This document shows, in pieces, positions 31,277 to 37,313 of a DNA stretch of 64,000 nt. Position 1 is the first letter of the stretch. Every line of letters begins with the position of its first letter. The notes under the pieces are model-generated. The model did no database searches and was not told the origin of the DNA. It saw only the letters and a list, made by a program, of their open reading frames with translations. Position numbers and translations under genes: made by a program. Origin of the DNA: Halorubrum yunnanense (GTDB lineage: Archaea; Halobacteriota; Halobacteria; Halobacteriales; Haloferacaceae); NCBI RefSeq assembly GCF_026586675.1, contig NZ_JAODIX010000027.1, positions 1 through 64,000 of the forward strand, in the 5' to 3' direction.

Positions 31277-31350
31277 TGCCGCCTCCCCGATTTGAACGGG
31301 GGACAGCTCGATCTTCAGTCGAGTGCTCTCCCAGTCTGAGCTAAGGCGGC
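31277..31350 (-). tRNA. tRNA-Phe (anticodon GAA)
   Basis: This is a 74-nt tRNA on the minus strand. The acceptor strands GCCGCCT/AGGCGGC pair, with A as discriminator. The anticodon stem CTCGA/TCGAG holds the loop CTGAAGA, giving anticodon GAA. The T arm is CCCCGTTCAAATCGGGG. A TATA-like stretch lies about 30-45 nt upstream (31380-31395). It marks one edge of the element-rich region. Confidence 0.97.
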
Positions 31351-31573
31351 TCGCACTCGGACCAACGCCGAATCGAGACAAAAGGATTTCGAAAGGCGGC
31401 GGGCGGATCGGACGCGGACCCGCCACCGGCCCGTCGCCGCTTGACCGCGCTTCGCCGCTGGTGACTTGATGTCGGGGCCGCGAGTTTCGGACGTTCTTGC
31501 TGGTGATCTGTGGCTCCGGCAGCGACCGTCTCCACCGAAATAGGGCCGGTTATCCCGCCCGTTAGTCCGCTTG

Positions 31574-32167
31574 ATGTCAGACCACGAGCATCACCACGAA
31601 CGCGTCGACGCCGCCGTCGACGACCGGACCGCTTGGGCCCGTCGTCGCCGCGAGGGGATCCCCACCGACGAGAACCTCCTCGTCGTCGCCTGCATGGACG
31701 AGCGCATCCCGATCGAGGAGGCGCTGGGGATCGAACTCGGCGACGCGCAGGTGTTCCGCAACGCCGGCGGCAAGGTCACCGACGACGTGATCCGGTCGGC
31801 GGCGCTCACGACGAACTTCTTCGACACCGACGAGATCATCGTGATCAACCACACCGACTGCGGGATGATGAGTGCCCCCGACGAGGCGGTCCGCGACGGG
31901 CTCGAAACACAGGTCGGCGATCTCGACGACGCCGACCTCGACCCCTCACTGCCGGCGCTGACCATCGGTGACGTCGACCTCATGGAGTGGATAAAAATGA
32001 CCGGCGATATCGACGAGGCCTGCGCCGCGCAGGTCACCTACCTCCGCGAATCGGCGTTCATCCCGGACGACGTTGCCGTCACCGGCTACGTCTACGAGGT
32101 CGAGTCCGGCGAACTGCGCCGTCCGGGCGAGCGCGTCGCCGAGGCGATCAGCGAACGACGGGACTGA
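31574..32167 (+). CDS. Beta-type carbonic anhydrase
   Basis: This 197-aa protein has the zinc ligands of beta-carbonic anhydrases: Cys and the Asp-Arg dyad in VACMDERIP, then His and Cys in NHTDCGMM. FRNAGGKVTDD, which shapes the active site, lies between. It interconverts CO2 and bicarbonate in the cytoplasm. The length fits short archaeal and bacterial forms. The ATG at 31574 (MSDHEHHHE) was chosen over the preceding TTG. A His-rich N-terminus is a small oddity. The gene has normal haloarchaeal GC although it sits in the accessory region. Confidence 0.93.
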   Translation: MSDHEHHHERVDAAVDDRTAWARRRREGIPTDENLLVVACMDERIPIEEALGIELGDAQVFRNAGGKVTDDVIRSAALTTNFFDTDEIIVINHTDCGMMSAPDEAVRDGLETQVGDLDDADLDPSLPALTIGDVDLMEWIKMTGDIDEACAAQVTYLRESAFIPDDVAVTGYVYEVESGELRRPGERVAEAISERRD

Positions 32168-32243
32168 AAGCGGCGAGCAGCACGCCGGTCGCTCTCTGAA
32201 TCGACTCCGCCTGCTGCTCGCGATGTCGCTCGCAGCAGCAGAA

Positions 32244-32265
32244 TGGGACCGCCCGGATTCGAACC
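32244..32265 (-). repeat. tRNA 3'-end fragment (candidate att remnant)
   Basis: Read on the minus strand, these 22 bases are GGTTCGAATCCGGGCGGTCCCA written as T loop plus acceptor end, the 3' part of a tRNA. The 5' T-stem strand before it (TGAG) does not pair, so this is not a full tRNA. GC falls sharply within 100 bp to the right. Such fragments are left by integration into tRNA genes. The parent tRNA is not in this window. Confidence 0.45.
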
Positions 32266-32456
32266 TCAGTCGCCCCACTCCGTTCCGCTCCCTGCTTCGA
32301 ATCCGCTCACGGTGGCGACGCTCGCGACGTTGCTCGCGCCGCACACGACTCGATCTATAACATTGTGTGACAGTGCTGAACGGCCCCTTGTCGCTGGTGG
32401 CCACTACCATAAAATGTCACAAAAAAGAGGAACCAGCTACACTGGCCAAGACTGTT

Positions 32457-32781
32457 TTAATAGATAGTCTCCTGCAAAATTGATTCGGCTGTCCTTTTTT
32501 TGGGTGGATCGACTCGAAGTGAGAGAGAACTTCCGAACGAATCAGCTGCTACCAGATACCAGTCCTCTGTTTCTGGGTTCTTGAATGAGTAATAATCAGC
32601 ATTCTCACCGTTTGCGTTGAATCGAACGAATCCGTTTTCGTTCCATGCTGGTTCGACACGAATTCGAAATTCGATATCTTCACAATATATCTCCGCTGTT
32701 CTCTCACCGTCACATTCTATACGTTCGTACGCTATCTGTTCTTGTTCCAATTTACGAGTGTGACACTCCGAATCAACGTCC
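32457..32781 (-). pseudogene. 5'-truncated gene of unknown function
   Basis: The last 108 or so codons of a leftward gene survive, with an acidic, AT-richer composition (CDGERTAEIYCEDIEF, then NENGFVRFNANGENADYYSF, ending LQETIY). The frame continues upstream only by reading antisense through a decayed transposon end at 32782-32952, so the native start has been lost. There are no internal Met codons. No family was recognised. The Cys pair flanking a Glu-rich strand is the only visible pattern. Insertion of the IS200/IS605-like element is the likely cause of the truncation. Confidence 0.55.
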
Positions 32782-32952
32782 CCAGAAATCGAAGATTTCT
32801 GGTGTGCGAACGAATCGCACAGCAATTCGTTAACGCCCGTGGAGACTGCGCTCCCTACGGGAACCACTCCGGTTCCTGCAAAGTGCGTCATGAAAGCAGG
32901 AAGCCCCACCCTCAGCGAGCGCATCAGCGCGAGCAGGGTAGGGTAGTTCACT
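32782..32952 (+). mobile_element. Decayed tnpB 3' end / IS200-IS605 right end
   Basis: This segment starts with a perfect hairpin (CCAGAAATC-GAA-GATTTCTGG). It then carries a plus-strand reading stretch (NARGDCAPYGNHSGSCKVR) that resembles the variable C-terminal tails of haloarchaeal TnpB proteins. It closes with a CCCACCCTCAGCGAGCG hairpin and AGGGTAGGGTAG. The tail of TnpB and its overlapping guide-RNA scaffold seem to be all that remains. Confidence 0.55.
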
Positions 32953-32998
32953 GGCCGACGAAGGAACGTTTACTTTCGTTCCGACGCTTACACCTTCC

Positions 32999-33742
32999 AT
33001 GGATTCACTCCCGGATTTGAGTGGACGAACGGCCCTCGTGACCGGTAGTGCGAAACGGGTCGGCCGCGAATTGTTGGTGTCGATCGCCGAGTGCGGCGCG
33101 GACGTCGTCGTGCACTACAACGAAAGCGAAGCGGCGGCGGCCGCCACGGCCGAAGAGGTCCGCGACCGCGGCGGGGTTGCGATGACCGCTCAGGGCGACA
33201 TCACCGATCCGGCGTCCGTAGACGACCTGTTCGAGACGATCGAGTCGGAACTCGGACCGGTGGACATTCTGGTCAACAACGTCGGGGACTTCGACTCGCG
33301 TCACTGGACCGAGATTGAATGGGAGTCGTGGCAGAACGTCATCGAAACGACGTTCTACGGCACCGTACTGTGCTCTCGCCGTGCCGTTCCAGCGATGCGC
33401 GAACAGGAGTGGGGGCGGATCGTCAACATCGGATTCGCCGACAGCGACCGGATGCACGCCCACCCGGTGAACTTCCCGTACTTCGTCGCGAAAACGGGCG
33501 TCCTCATGTTCACGCGCATGCTGGCGACGGATACGCGCGACGACGGCGTCACCGTCAACGCCGTCTCCCCGTTCGCGGTCTCGAACACCGAAGCGGGCGT
33601 CGATGCGTTCCCACGGGGACGTCCCGCGTCGTTCGAGGATGTTGCTGCTCCGCTGCGGTTCTTCTTGAGCGATGCGGCTGACTACATTAGCGGGGAGAAC
33701 GTCGCCGTCGACGGCGGACGGATGCCTGAGTTCGACAGCTGA
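32999..33742 (+). CDS. Short-chain dehydrogenase/reductase (SDR)
   Basis: This 247-aa protein has the classical SDR fold. The Rossmann Gly motif is TGSAKRVGRELL, NNVGDFD serves as the NAG-type motif, and the active-site Tyr-x-x-x-Lys is YFVAK in NFPYFVAKTGVLM. The C-terminal strand reads GENVAVDGGRMP. The usual catalytic Ser region reads NIGFADSDR, with Ser displaced, so substrate handling may differ. It probably uses NADPH, as Lys-Arg follows the Gly motif. A TATA-like GTTTACTTTCG lies about 30 nt upstream. It is flanked by transposon remnants and may have been acquired horizontally. Confidence 0.9.
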   Translation: MDSLPDLSGRTALVTGSAKRVGRELLVSIAECGADVVVHYNESEAAAAATAEEVRDRGGVAMTAQGDITDPASVDDLFETIESELGPVDILVNNVGDFDSRHWTEIEWESWQNVIETTFYGTVLCSRRAVPAMREQEWGRIVNIGFADSDRMHAHPVNFPYFVAKTGVLMFTRMLATDTRDDGVTVNAVSPFAVSNTEAGVDAFPRGRPASFEDVAAPLRFFLSDAADYISGENVAVDGGRMPEFDS

Positions 33743-34173
33743 ATTGATCGGCGTACGCCATAATTGAGACGCCTCGCTGGTGTGACCGACCAAAGACAGA
33801 TGCCAGAAAACACGTCAGCTGACGGCCCGCGAACGATTCCCGTCGATCCGGTGATCCACGTCGAACCGTTTGCTACCCGTCTTTATTCAAGCAGGGAATC
33901 CCGGCCTTCAGGCCGGGAGGGAATGCGACATAGTTCTAACCAACCGCTATTCGACATCTGAACCGGAATCCAACTGGGACGTAGACAACGATGACATCGT
34001 AGAGTACCTCCGCGAGTTAGCCGACGTGGTTGACAACGAGGGGTCAGTAGATGAAGTAGAAGAGGAGTGGGAGGGTAGAGAGGTAGATATCTCGGTATGA
34101 TAGAAAGACAAACGGCTGACCTGCCGTCAAGCAGGTCTACGCTTGCTCGCGTGTCTGAGTTGAGGTGGGAGCG
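33743..34173. other. Fragment-rich intergenic stretch with IS200/IS605 hairpin
   Basis: There is no intact gene here. A short frame beginning MPENTSADGPRTIPVDP at 33800 runs into a hairpin (33893-33924, TCCCGGCC-TTCA-GGCCGGGA), a typical IS200/IS605 end. Beyond it, 33963-34100 encodes a plausible acidic C-terminus (DNDDIVEYLRELADVV, ending REVDISV) with no start of its own. Another small hairpin (ACCTGC-CGTCAA-GCAGGT) lies near 34120. Confidence 0.5.
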
Positions 34174-34356
34174 TTAGCGGCCTTCAACGTCCGTGGCCTC
34201 CTCTAATCGCTCGACGCGTTCGCGCAGCTCTTCGAGGTTGGGAACCTCGGCTCGTGCATCCTCCAGCGGGCGGACGTCGGTGAGTGCGTCGTAGGCTAAG
34301 AACTCGTCGACCACCTTCCCGCCTGCCTGTCCGACCCCGATTAATGCAAGTTTCAT
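34174..34356 (-). pseudogene. Truncated CetZ/FtsZ-like tubulin gene
   Basis: This 60-codon frame begins MKLALIGVGQAGGKVVDEFL, almost exactly the N-terminus of haloarchaeal CetZ tubulin-like proteins (about 360-400 aa), whose GQAGGK segment starts the GTP-binding domain. After about residue 25 the similarity stops. The remaining 35 residues (EVPNLEELRERVERLEEA) form a charged coiled-coil-like helix ending in a stop. The GGGTG(S/T)G tubulin motif is missing, so it cannot bind GTP. An internal deletion or a fusion to an unrelated tail explains it. A translated peptide is possible. Confidence 0.6.
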
Positions 34357-34417
34357 GTGAACACACTACACAAAACTACGCGGGTAGGATAGATAAAGGT
34401 TAGATACCCAAACTATC

Positions 34418-34544
34418 TGCTGTGTTGAATAGCGGTTGTTGAGTGTCGGCTTATCGACACCGATCTCGAGACCATACAGCTCATGAGATGACGAGTCGAT
34501 TCATATCTGCCTTGTCCACCCGATCACCGCTATTCAACAGAGCA
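34418..34544. repeat. Short inverted-repeat element (MITE-like), 127 bp
   Basis: The terminal inverted repeats TGCTGTGTTGAATAGCGGT and, at the far end, the complement of TGCTCTGTTGAATAGCGGT match at 18 of 19 bases. The 89-bp interior is non-coding and has its own small hairpin (GTGTCGGCTTATCGACAC). GGCTCTGTTGAAATCC near 37064 resembles the right terminus. No target duplication is obvious. It looks like a miniature derivative of a DDE-type insertion sequence. Confidence 0.6.
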
Positions 34545-34628
34545 GTCGATACAGCGTCTCAAGCCGTCATTGACGTTCACTAGTCAACGGGACGAGAAAG
34601 AGTCTCGATACAACGCTCGTTGTACGGC

Positions 34629-34796
34629 TTATGCGCTGATCAACGCTTTCAGCTCTGAGAAGAACGTCTCAAAAATGCCAAACAGTCCGTTGAGAAACTC
34701 AATATCGCTAGGATCAAGACTCTCAGCGGCAGCCACTCCGGTGAATAGCAGTAGTACCATGCTTAGGATAAGTACTGACTGAATCTTCTTATTCAT
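34629..34796 (-). CDS. Small secreted peptide precursor, unrecognised
   Basis: This 55-aa precursor begins with a textbook Sec signal (MNKKIQSVLILSMVLLLF) and a likely signal-peptidase site at VAA-A or AAA-E (residues about 22-25). The predicted mature peptide is about 31 residues, starts ESLDPSDIEF and contains NGLFGIFETFFSELKALI, a strongly amphipathic helix with aromatic residues on one face. It has no cysteines. TAATTACTTATTA lies about 25-35 nt upstream as a promoter. The gene is AT-richer than its surroundings and lies between an inverted-repeat element and IS6. A bacteriocin-like (halocin) or membrane-active role is possible, but this is inference. Confidence 0.62.
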   Translation of the reverse strand: MNKKIQSVLILSMVLLLFTGVAAAESLDPSDIEFLNGLFGIFETFFSELKALISA

Positions 34797-34843
34797 ATTT
34801 ATCACATGTGAGCGGAGTAATAAGTAATTATCCCCCAAGCAGC

Positions 34844-35534
34844 GGTCGCGTAAAGTTAGAGGATGAGGCGTTCGACTTCAGAGTGTCTATGACCGAAATC
34901 GAACGCCTCAGCGAGAGTATCGCGTGGATCGACTTGTCATTTGTGAAGCGAGATCGGACGCCGCGCTGGGCGATTGAAGTAGGGATCCGCTGTCATTTAG
35001 CTGGTATGTTACTACGCGAGGTAAGTAACCATCCCGAAAGGCTTGGGATTGATCGGAGTCACGTCGCTATTCACAATTGGGTTCATAAAGCCGATCTACA
35101 GCCGATCTCGACCGTCTCAGAGGATCAACTCGCGGTTGACGAAAAGATGATCCGCCTCCACGGCCAGAAGTTCTGGCTGTACGGCGCGGTTAATCCACAG
35201 ACGAACGAGATCCTCCACGTGAGTCTCTATCCGACCGCATATAAACAGACGACGCGGTGGTTTCTGACCGAGCTACACCGGCGTTACCAGCTGAATAACG
35301 TCGAATTTCTCGTCGATGACGCAGACTATCTCGGATCAGTCCTTGCTGAAGACAGCTATCGATTTCGAGTGATTCGTCATGGAAATCGGAATGCCATCGA
35401 ACGTGTCTTTTGGGAAATAGAACGACGAACGTCTTCGTTTGCGAATAGTTTTAGCAATGTCGCGTTAGAGACAGCTCAAAACTGGCTCGAAGCCCTCGCC
35501 GTCTACCACAATTCACGCCAAAGTTAACGCGACC
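34844..35534 (+). mobile_element. IS6-family insertion sequence
   Basis: This 691-bp element has imperfect terminal inverted repeats: GGTCGCGTAAAGTTA at the left, and at the right the complement of GGTCGCGTTAACTTT. It encodes one transposase. The bases outside the ends (CAAGCAGC and GTGGATTT) are not duplicates of each other, so this copy probably took part in a deletion or cointegrate event. Its right end lies within a tnpB gene whose 5' part is missing. Confidence 0.88.
34889..35527 (+). CDS. IS6-family transposase
   Basis: This 212-aa DDE transposase is of the haloarchaeal IS6 type. The catalytic residues lie in LAVDEKMIR (Asp84), LVDDADYL (Asp143/144) and [12 protein letters not shown] (Glu177). 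Family blocks [11 protein letters not shown] and [12 protein letters not shown] are intact. The reading frame is uninterrupted, so it may be active. The start at 34889 gives the usual N-terminus ([10 protein letters not shown]). It catalyses replicative transposition through cointegrates. An in-frame extension upstream crosses the left terminal repeat and was rejected. Confidence 0.95.
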
Positions 35535-36167
35535 GTGGATTTGGGTGTCAACAACATCGCCGTCGCTTCAACAGGGCGCTTCTGGTCGGCAGACGAGTTC
35601 AATCACTGGCGCAACGAGTACGAGAAACGTCGTGGGTCGCTCCAACAGTGTGGCTCACGTCATGCTCACGAGAACATCGAGAACGTCGGTCGCAAAGAGA
35701 CGGGGCGGTTCGAGATACACCTGCACACGGTGGCAAACGAACTCATCGAGGAGGCCGTCGAACACGACTGCTCGCACATCGTGTTCGAGGAGTTGACCCA
35801 CATTCGGGAGACCATCCCGAAGGCGACGTGGCAACAGCTTTGGGCGTTCCGACGCCTCTACGAGTACGTCGAATACAAGGCTAAAGAGTACGGCGTGGAG
35901 GTCGTACAAGTTGACCCTCGGAACACGTCCAAACAGTGTTCGACGTGTGGGTTTACCCACAGCGACAATCGGACGGGAGGAGTGTTCTGTTGTCAGCACT
36001 GCGGGTACGAGAACCACGCTCATTACAACGCTTCCAAGAACACCGGGTTACAGTATCTCCGTCGTCGGCAAAATGTAGACGATGGAGGCGCACCCGTAGA
36101 TGTGCGCTTGAATCGCGGGACGCTGAACGTGAACGGCGAATATTCGTCTACTGCTCTCAGCAGTTAG
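35535..36167 (+). pseudogene. TnpB (IS1341-type) gene, 5' truncated by IS6
   Basis: About 210 C-terminal codons of a TnpB RNA-guided nuclease remain, beginning exactly at the IS6 boundary with [12 protein letters not shown] (first RuvC Asp). The second acidic residue lies in [10 protein letters not shown] (Glu85). The zinc ribbon CSTCG and CCQHCG is complete. The third RuvC Asp, normally in HADYNA, is His here (HAHYNASKN, residue 163). With the N-terminal RNA- and DNA-binding half gone and a catalytic Asp lost, nuclease activity is not expected. The C-terminal tail GTLNVNGEY is typical of haloarchaeal TnpB. Confidence 0.93.
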
Positions 36168-36262
36168 AACGGAAGTCCACGCGAAAGCCTGGGGGTCGTA
36201 CGGAAATCGCAGATTTCCGTGATGACGAGAGACGAAGTCTCTCGAACCACTTGACCCCGGGG
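36168..36262 (+). mobile_element. Right end of the tnpB element, putative guide-RNA scaffold
   Basis: Downstream of the tnpB stop come CGGAAATCG-CAG-ATTTCCG and GAGAGACGAAGTCTCTC hairpins and then ACCACTTGACCCC. In IS200/IS605 elements the tnpB 3' end and this region produce the guide (omega) RNA. The exact element boundary is not visible. Confidence 0.5.
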
Positions 36263-36266
36263 CAAT

Positions 36267-36983
36267 TTACCAAGGAATCTGTTCCTTGTCTTTCCAGAGT
36301 TTACCCGCTGGACTCCCTCGCGCAAATTGAGAGAGCCAGACCGGCGTTTCGGCTCCTTTCGATGGAGAGCGAGGGGCACGGTCGCCGCCCATATCGGTCT
36401 GAACCCAGCCGGGTGAGACGGCATTCGCGATGAGACCTTGATCACCGTATTCACCATCTAGGTAGGCTGTTAATCCGCCAATACCCACCTTCGAGAGCCG
36501 GTAAGCGGGATATTGACCGTCCATCTGTCCGTCAGTGAACTGTCCAAGCCCCGAAGACATCGAGACAACACGACCGCTGTGGCTGTCCAACAGTAGTGGT
36601 AGCGCTTGCTTCGTCAACAACACCGGGCCACGAAGGTTCACAGCCATTGTCCGGTCGAAGTCCGCACGTTCCATCTCGTGGAGTGGACCCGACCGGGGGA
36701 AGATCCCAGCGTTATTCACCAGGATATCAAGCGACCCCTCCTCCTGTTCGATTGTGTCGACTGCCGATTGGATCTCCTCTTCGGCAGTCACATCCAGTTT
36801 GATCGCATGCTGGTTGGGTGCGGTAACATCAGTTGGATCTCGGGCGCCTGCGTATACGGTCGCGCCTAAGTCGGCGAGCTTGGTAGCGATCTTGGCTCCG
36901 ATTCCGCGGTTTGCCCCAGTCACGAGGGCAACATCGTCTGTCAAATCGGATTTGAGATCCACGTCGGGAGGTGTATCTGCCAT
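36267..36983 (-). CDS. Short-chain dehydrogenase/reductase (carbonyl reductase-like)
   Basis: This 238-aa SDR has the cofactor motif TGANRGIGAKIA, NNAG in LDILVNNAGIFP, the catalytic Ser in VVSMSSGLGQF, and Tyr/Lys in YPAYRLSKVG. The later VSPGWVQTDMGG is complete. The sequence resembles carbonyl reductases that use NADPH. The ATG at 36983 precedes MADTPPDVDLKSDL, and an upstream in-frame ATG adds a short leader. GC is lower than in the core genome, and the gene lies between a tnpB relic and further transposon debris, so acquisition by transfer is plausible. The substrate is unknown. Confidence 0.9.
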   Translation of the reverse strand: MADTPPDVDLKSDLTDDVALVTGANRGIGAKIATKLADLGATVYAGARDPTDVTAPNQHAIKLDVTAEEEIQSAVDTIEQEEGSLDILVNNAGIFPRSGPLHEMERADFDRTMAVNLRGPVLLTKQALPLLLDSHSGRVVSMSSGLGQFTDGQMDGQYPAYRLSKVGIGGLTAYLDGEYGDQGLIANAVSPGWVQTDMGGDRAPRSPSKGAETPVWLSQFARGSPAGKLWKDKEQIPW

Positions 36984-37099
36984 GCCAGCATAGTAGACGG
37001 ATTCCACCGGGATATAACTCACAAGTGGATCTTAGATATGTGTCTTACATACGAATGGCTCTGTTGAAATCCTCTTCTTTAGCTGACTATAGGCGCTAA

Positions 37100-37146
37100 G
37101 CCCCCGTCCTCAAGGAGCGAACGAAGTGAGCGAGTAGGGCGGGGAT
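37100..37146. mobile_element. IS200/IS605 end hairpin, decayed
   Basis: CCCCCGTCCT and AGGGCGGGG form a long hairpin with the loop region GGAGCGAACGAAGTGAGCGAG, like the ends seen at 31117 and 32890. The 37064 region just before it carries GGCTCTGTTGAAA, similar to the inverted repeats at 34418-34544. No reading frame is attached. Confidence 0.45.
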
Positions 37147-37151
37147 ACAGC

Positions 37152-37238
37152 GCCGTCATCGTTTTAGAGGTTCTCAAAAAACACTATCCAGAACTTCATG
37201 AGGAGGTTGAGAATATTGTCTGTGACGATGAAGAATAG
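37152..37238 (+). pseudogene. C-terminal fragment of an unknown gene
   Basis: An open phase of 28 codons reads AVIVLEVLKKHYPELHEEVE and ends VCDDEE-stop. It has plausible protein character (amphipathic helix, acidic end) but no start, because a transposon end precedes it. It is too short to identify. Confidence 0.35.
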
Positions 37239-37242
37239 TGGA

Positions 37243-37313
37243 TGGGGCCGCTGAGAGTCGAACTCAGGTCCACTGCACCCAAGGCAGCGAGGATACCACT
37301 ACCCCACGGCCCC
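37243..37313 (-). tRNA. tRNA-Pro (anticodon UGG)
   Basis: This is a 71-nt tRNA on the minus strand. GGGGCCG pairs with CGGCCCC, with A as discriminator. The anticodon loop CTTGGGT gives UGG, and the T arm is CTGAGTTCGACTCTCAG. It marks the right edge of the element-rich region. Confidence 0.96.

Follow-up and report, generated by a model that had tools for sequence, protein, structure and literature searches.

The window, which is the whole 64,000-nucleotide stretch of DNA analyzed here, contains a low-GC island with transposase debris between the genes for tRNA-Phe (31277-31350) and tRNA-Pro (37243-37313). Repeats of these flanking tRNA genes, which would be the mark of an integrated element, were sought inside the island, and none was convincing. 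An intact 55-aa open reading frame, MNKKIQSVLILSMVLLLFTGVAAAESLDPSDIEFLNGLFGIFETFFSELKALISA, is located on the minus strand of this island, with its ATG at 34796 and its stop codon ending at 34629, exactly at the position given in the original prediction. That prediction had also placed the gene between an inverted-repeat element and an IS6 element, which agrees with the features found here, and a remnant of an IS5-family transposase was additionally located in between. The features of the locus are as follows:

34417 to 34545, no strand assigned: MITE-like element of 129 bp with imperfect terminal inverted repeats of about 29 nt, also present beside the peptide gene in Halorubrum sp. SD626R.
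34545 to 34601, plus strand: remnant of an IS5-family transposase, about 20 codons long, just 3′ of the peptide stop codon, recognized by DNA matches within the same genome and by tblastn with the transposase of plasmid pHrrPV6.
34629 to 34796, minus strand: gene of the 55-aa pre-peptide, with a Sec signal in residues 1 to 24 and a predicted mature amphipathic helix in residues 25 to 55.
34797 to 34844, minus strand: upstream stretch with the AT-rich promoter-like box GATAATTACTTATTA, a putative promoter, kept in SD626R up to the insertion sequence boundary.
34844 to 35539, plus strand: IS6/IS240-type insertion sequence with inverted ends, the coordinates of which are approximate; its match to DDE_Tnp_IS240 (E 4e-5) is just below the Pfam cut-off.

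The left end of the IS6/IS240-type element lies about 48 bp 5′ of the peptide ATG, while its transposase frame starts about 93 bp 5′, and the element abuts a truncated IS605 TnpB. The DNA of the IS5 remnant matches three other places in the same genome, each of which contains this transposase. Full-length copies, matching the pHrrPV6 transposase at about 99%, are present on contigs C101 and C105, and the copy on C76 is cut by the contig end. Inspection by eye of the island (31277-37313) also revealed two short-chain-dehydrogenase-like frames (32999-33742 and 36267-37022), and a 60-aa frame on the minus strand (34174-34356) with a CetZ/tubulin-type start, MKLALIGVGQAGGKVVDEFL. Residues 13-58 of the latter match two longer frames of the same genome at 73%, and the frame is apparently a remnant, either truncated or chimeric.

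Of 3000 dinucleotide shuffles made from the 600-bp region around the gene, 5 contained a comparable small ORF with a Sec-type signal, and a simple signal-plus-tail test picked out no ORF of the 64-kb window other than that of the peptide. The shuffle result makes it unlikely that the frame arose by chance, which the original prediction had named as one way in which it could fail. The gene is present in one copy in its genome, and its GC content is 45% (GC3 52%), while that of the chromosome outside the island is about 65-75%, consistent with the low GC reported earlier. When all eight members of the peptide family described below were compared with Pfam, NCBIfam, PHROGs, and PADLOC, there was no match at a meaningful level. 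The view that this is a genuine secreted small-peptide gene of a haloarchaeon, which is named by no family library, is well supported by these sequence data.

The signal sequence, which ends in FTGVAAA/ES, was read directly. It has an n-region with two lysines, an uncharged hydrophobic core, and an AAA/E cleavage site, and it contains neither a twin arginine nor a lipobox cysteine, which bears out the claim of a clear Sec signal. A Sec-type signal was also identified by eye in all eight members. The mature part consists of 31 residues with a net charge of -5, and its best 18-residue hydrophobic moment, 0.47, was reached by 1.75% of composition shuffles. In all seven mature peptides that were compared with shuffles, the amphipathic stretch was the stronger one (p at most 0.02), and the net charges of all mature peptides were between -4 and -7. 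Acidic character is usual for the proteins of halophiles. The AlphaFold model contained two helices, one in the signal (residues 3-25) and one in the mature part (residues 30-54, mean pLDDT 76). Hence, the hydrophobic moment and the model support the proposed amphipathic mature helix, while its description as aromatic-rich applies mainly to the Halorubrum members, the others being leucine-rich.

The nearest named relative is a 91%-identical homologue in Halorubrum sp. SD626R. The two genomes have in common a 430-bp block of DNA with 93% identity. In SD626R this block occupies a different locus, with an ABC exporter on one side and a phosphomannomutase-like frame on the other. The block comprises the inverted-repeat element, the IS5 remnant, the peptide gene, and 48 bp upstream, and it stops where the IS6-type element of the window starts; SD626R does not contain this element at this point. 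The upstream 48 nt, which differ at five positions between the two genomes, retain in both the AT-rich box GATAATTACTTATTA, located by eye at -36 to -22 relative to the ATG in the window. The promoter-like box of the original prediction was thus found again by eye, and it is consistent with the core promoter of a leaderless or nearly leaderless haloarchaeal gene. A 262-aa frame with a phosphomannomutase N-terminal domain and a histidine-kinase-type ATPase domain, which is a fusion or a rearrangement, was also observed (L032:8379-9167). Inverted ends on both sides in SD626R raised the possibility that a single intact insertion element carries the gene as cargo. This idea was not adopted, because inspection by eye revealed no matching target duplications, and the two flanking transposase-like pieces appear to be oppositely oriented.

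The comparison with SD626R also bears on whether the gene could be a decaying or neutral passenger, formerly functional and now carried in an insertion-sequence graveyard. Such a history could be suggested by the transposase fragments on both sides of the gene, by the trimming of its upstream region to about 48 bp by the IS6-type element, and by the mainly nonsynonymous changes between the two copies (two synonymous and five nonsynonymous codons, which are too few to show constraint). However, all 55 codons are intact in both copies, the promoter-like box was spared and conserved, and the divergence of the coding sequence (7/168) is no higher than that of the flanks (21/260). We consider the passenger explanation distinctly improbable, the least probable of the uses and fates considered here.

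A search with the single sequence among 170 genomes of the family also returned G101 and G110, where weak but full-length matches lay in frames 55 and 67 codons long. A profile built from these hits added G100, G099, and G096, which belong to the same genus as G101 (genus g20), and G216 from another family of the order. Beyond these members the scores fell sharply to signal-peptide matches inside long frames, and a match in G162 was left out because it carries a stop codon and has no good signal part. The six additional genomes represent one Halorubrum (G110), four species of the second genus, and one species of the second family, and their pre-peptides are 52-58 aa long and have the same build. 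Among all 146 genomes of the family of G216 only G216 itself reached member level, no member was found in 125 genomes of another family, and 292 genomes drawn from the order yielded the known members and nothing further. The search for homologues in other haloarchaea, proposed with the original prediction, thus found relatives in seven other genomes, and the scarcity across the searched sets shows that the family, with eight genomes known from these searches, is rare and patchy. The view that the gene is viral or plasmid cargo was not supported, as no relative was present in plasmid and phage records or in IMG/VR viral contigs; hits to streptococcal phages (E 6) were regarded as chance.

The signal sequence partly determined which hits were first selected, and the window peptide could resemble the distant members through its signal only, so that they would not form one family. 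This explanation is compatible with any function. It agrees with the dominance of signal peptides in the weak hits, with the failure of a mature-only profile to recover the window peptide, and with the mature alignment of the window peptide and G110, which was not above shuffles (p 0.10). On the other hand, a leave-out full-length profile, made from the other six members without the window pair, assigned 31.9 bits (E 1.2e-7) to the window peptide, while signal-only matches obtained 24 bits or less. The mature alignment with G101 was better than shuffles (p 0.001, and 0.02 when the hydrophobic pattern was preserved), and length, charge, and helix placement all agree between the window peptide and the others. 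We regard a resemblance through the signal only as rather unlikely. Among themselves, the mature parts of G110, G216, and the g20 group are for the most part well linked, and the predicted build of a Sec signal followed by an acidic helix within 52-58 aa is shared across the members. These comparisons suggest that the window peptide and the other members likely constitute one family with homologous mature parts.

In the mature part of the g20 peptides, G100 and G099 differ by seven synonymous and two nonsynonymous codons, and G101 and G100 by 13 synonymous and five nonsynonymous codons. Conservation is lower in the signals, which vary more freely (four synonymous and 12 nonsynonymous codons), than in the mature part. 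This codon pattern, which is expected of a functional secreted peptide, indicates purifying selection on the predicted mature helix in g20. A conserved mature region, as looked for in homologues by the original prediction, is present within g20, where the changes are mostly synonymous. The four species of this genus also have a conserved core-promoter block, AAACATCTTT, which lies about 26-35 nt 5′ of the ATG, at the distance where the AT-rich box was located by eye in the window. In G096 the gene lies at a different locus, and its homology to the other g20 loci is limited to the ORF and the AAACATCTTT block, so that the gene seems to travel as a minimal cassette, little more than the ORF and its core promoter in a presumably leaderless-type arrangement. 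The gene is of a mobile, accessory haloarchaeal kind.

The neighbors of the peptide gene vary among the loci. In the window no ABC transporter adjoins it, and no dedicated protease or regulator is linked to it. Between 33.7 and 36.4 kb only transposase pieces, the CetZ-like fragment, and an unassigned 76-aa frame were found and no immunity gene candidate, as the original prediction had also noted. In two of three Halorubrum loci (SD626R and G110) the gene adjoins an accessory ABC exporter, on either side of the same exporter type, and in G099, G100, and G101 it faces an operon of a CARDB protein, an ATPase, and a MacB-type protein 0.3 kb away. Of 52 Halorubrum genomes, 11 contain a close version of the exporter (75-100% identity), and its surroundings differ among them. 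The exporter as a fixed partner was rejected, because ten other exporter neighborhoods hold no family peptide, and the link between the two may therefore be coincidental; links between the peptide gene and its neighbors are suggestive at most. As separate observations, the exporter (L034:2866-4746, L032:5637-7568) is 92-100% identical among nine Halorubrum species, with two copies in SD626R, and is apparently mobile itself. In G112 (L135:3729-6738) it is followed by frames which by eye resemble the CARDB/ATPase/MacB operon of g20. In G216 (L084:7973-8900) a divergent IS6-type transposase frame starts about 100 bp 5′ of the peptide gene, as in the window.

These neighborhoods, together with the heptad-like hydrophobic pattern of the helix, could point to a surface or assembly peptide that forms coiled coils outside the cell, or to a small partner of ABC export. 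The exporter adjacent in two of three Halorubrum loci and the CARDB-ATPase-MacB operon faced in three species are consistent with this explanation, while the ten exporter neighborhoods in the genus without a family peptide, and the window gene without an adjacent transporter, argue against it. The best solved-structure match of the profile, over the helix, was 8qae (E 5.6e-9), a designed antiparallel coiled-coil protein. As a designed protein it is a pattern match and not a relative, so we read the match as a common heptad-like pattern, which makes self-assembly worth testing. On balance, a surface or assembly role appears unlikely. Somewhat less probable still is a secreted pheromone-like signal sensed by a partner encoded elsewhere. 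The small size, the Sec export, the patchy accessory distribution, and a mature part that is conserved within one genus would suit a signal, as would a weak subthreshold match to a pheromone family. However, this match is confined to the signal region and far below the cut-off, and no receptor, kinase, or regulator is conserved beside the gene across the loci examined.

The best explanation of the data as a whole, to which we assign a probability of roughly 0.4, is a mobile gene for a Sec-exported pre-peptide with a membrane- or surface-active helix, perhaps resembling the microhalocins. If expressed, the pre-peptide of about 55 residues would leave the cell through Sec, and signal peptidase would cleave it after AAA to free a peptide of about 30 residues, with a short flexible lead rich in G, S, D, and P and a single acidic amphipathic helix. 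This helix would lie on membranes or cell surfaces, or oligomerize in or on them, and the peptide would act against neighboring haloarchaea in the manner of microhalocins. The microhalocin-like explanation draws on the ORF shuffles, the SD626R homologue, the full-length members in eight genomes, the constraint in g20, the promoter block, the amphipathicity, the AlphaFold helices, and the precedent of haloarchaeal antagonists that are small helical peptides. Against it stand the window and SD626R pair without a purifying signature, the miss by the mature-only profile, the acidic nature of the peptide, and the missing linkage to an immunity gene, dedicated protease, or regulator in the window. 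The action of the helix at membranes or surfaces and its use against neighboring haloarchaea are a more tentative part of this explanation, and the conservation of the mature helix in g20 does not look like an arms race. Our best estimate ranks antagonism as the likeliest use, followed by an assembly or surface role, a signal, and a decaying passenger. The toxin, signal, and surface peptide named as options in the original prediction are all still candidates. A wider proposal, speculative and improbable in its full extent, is an undescribed family of Sec-exported, pro-domain-free acidic-helix peptides moving as ORF-plus-promoter cassettes, which would form a minimal archaeal antagonistic or pore-forming class, perhaps with ABC transporters as immunity or export partners.

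Archaeal genomes are poorly annotated for small secreted peptides, and few halocin genes have been described. The defined mature helix, the natural variants across two haloarchaeal families, and the measurable constraint make this peptide family directly synthesizable and testable. If active, its members would form a class of archaeal antagonists that is simple and genetically encoded, and if inactive, they would still be an unannotated secreted peptide family to be explained.

Among known systems, the phenol-soluble modulins resemble the window peptide in that each is encoded by a small stand-alone gene and forms a short amphipathic helix whose hydrophobic face is broad. They are not known to carry a cleavable Sec signal and leave the cell by a dedicated ABC exporter, in contrast to the Sec signal of the window peptide. 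Known microhalocins carry Tat signals and a HalI immunity part, while no immunity gene is linked to the peptide gene in the window. The microhalocins HalS8 and HalC8 are similar to the window peptide in being haloarchaeal, in having an export signal, and in mature size, with microhalocins reaching down to 3.6 kDa (PMC4609331). However, the known peptide halocins are reported to be released proteolytically from larger precursors (PMC12893001), while the window encodes a 55-residue pre-peptide with a Sec signal, a difference in build by which the two are set apart here. Because it has neither a pro-protein nor a linked immunity gene, the window peptide is not filed as a halocin. HmHapP-N, the N-terminal antagonistic peptide of HFX_0892 from Haloferax mediterranei, is freed from its precursor by an extracellular serine protease (PMC12893001), unlike the window peptide, which has no pro-domain beyond the signal in its 55 aa from ATG to stop. 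Both are haloarchaeal helical peptides, HmHapP-N being secreted and the window peptide predicted to be, and the dependence of activity on the helix is a feature of HmHapP-N, in which helix-breaking prolines abolish activity (PMC12893001).
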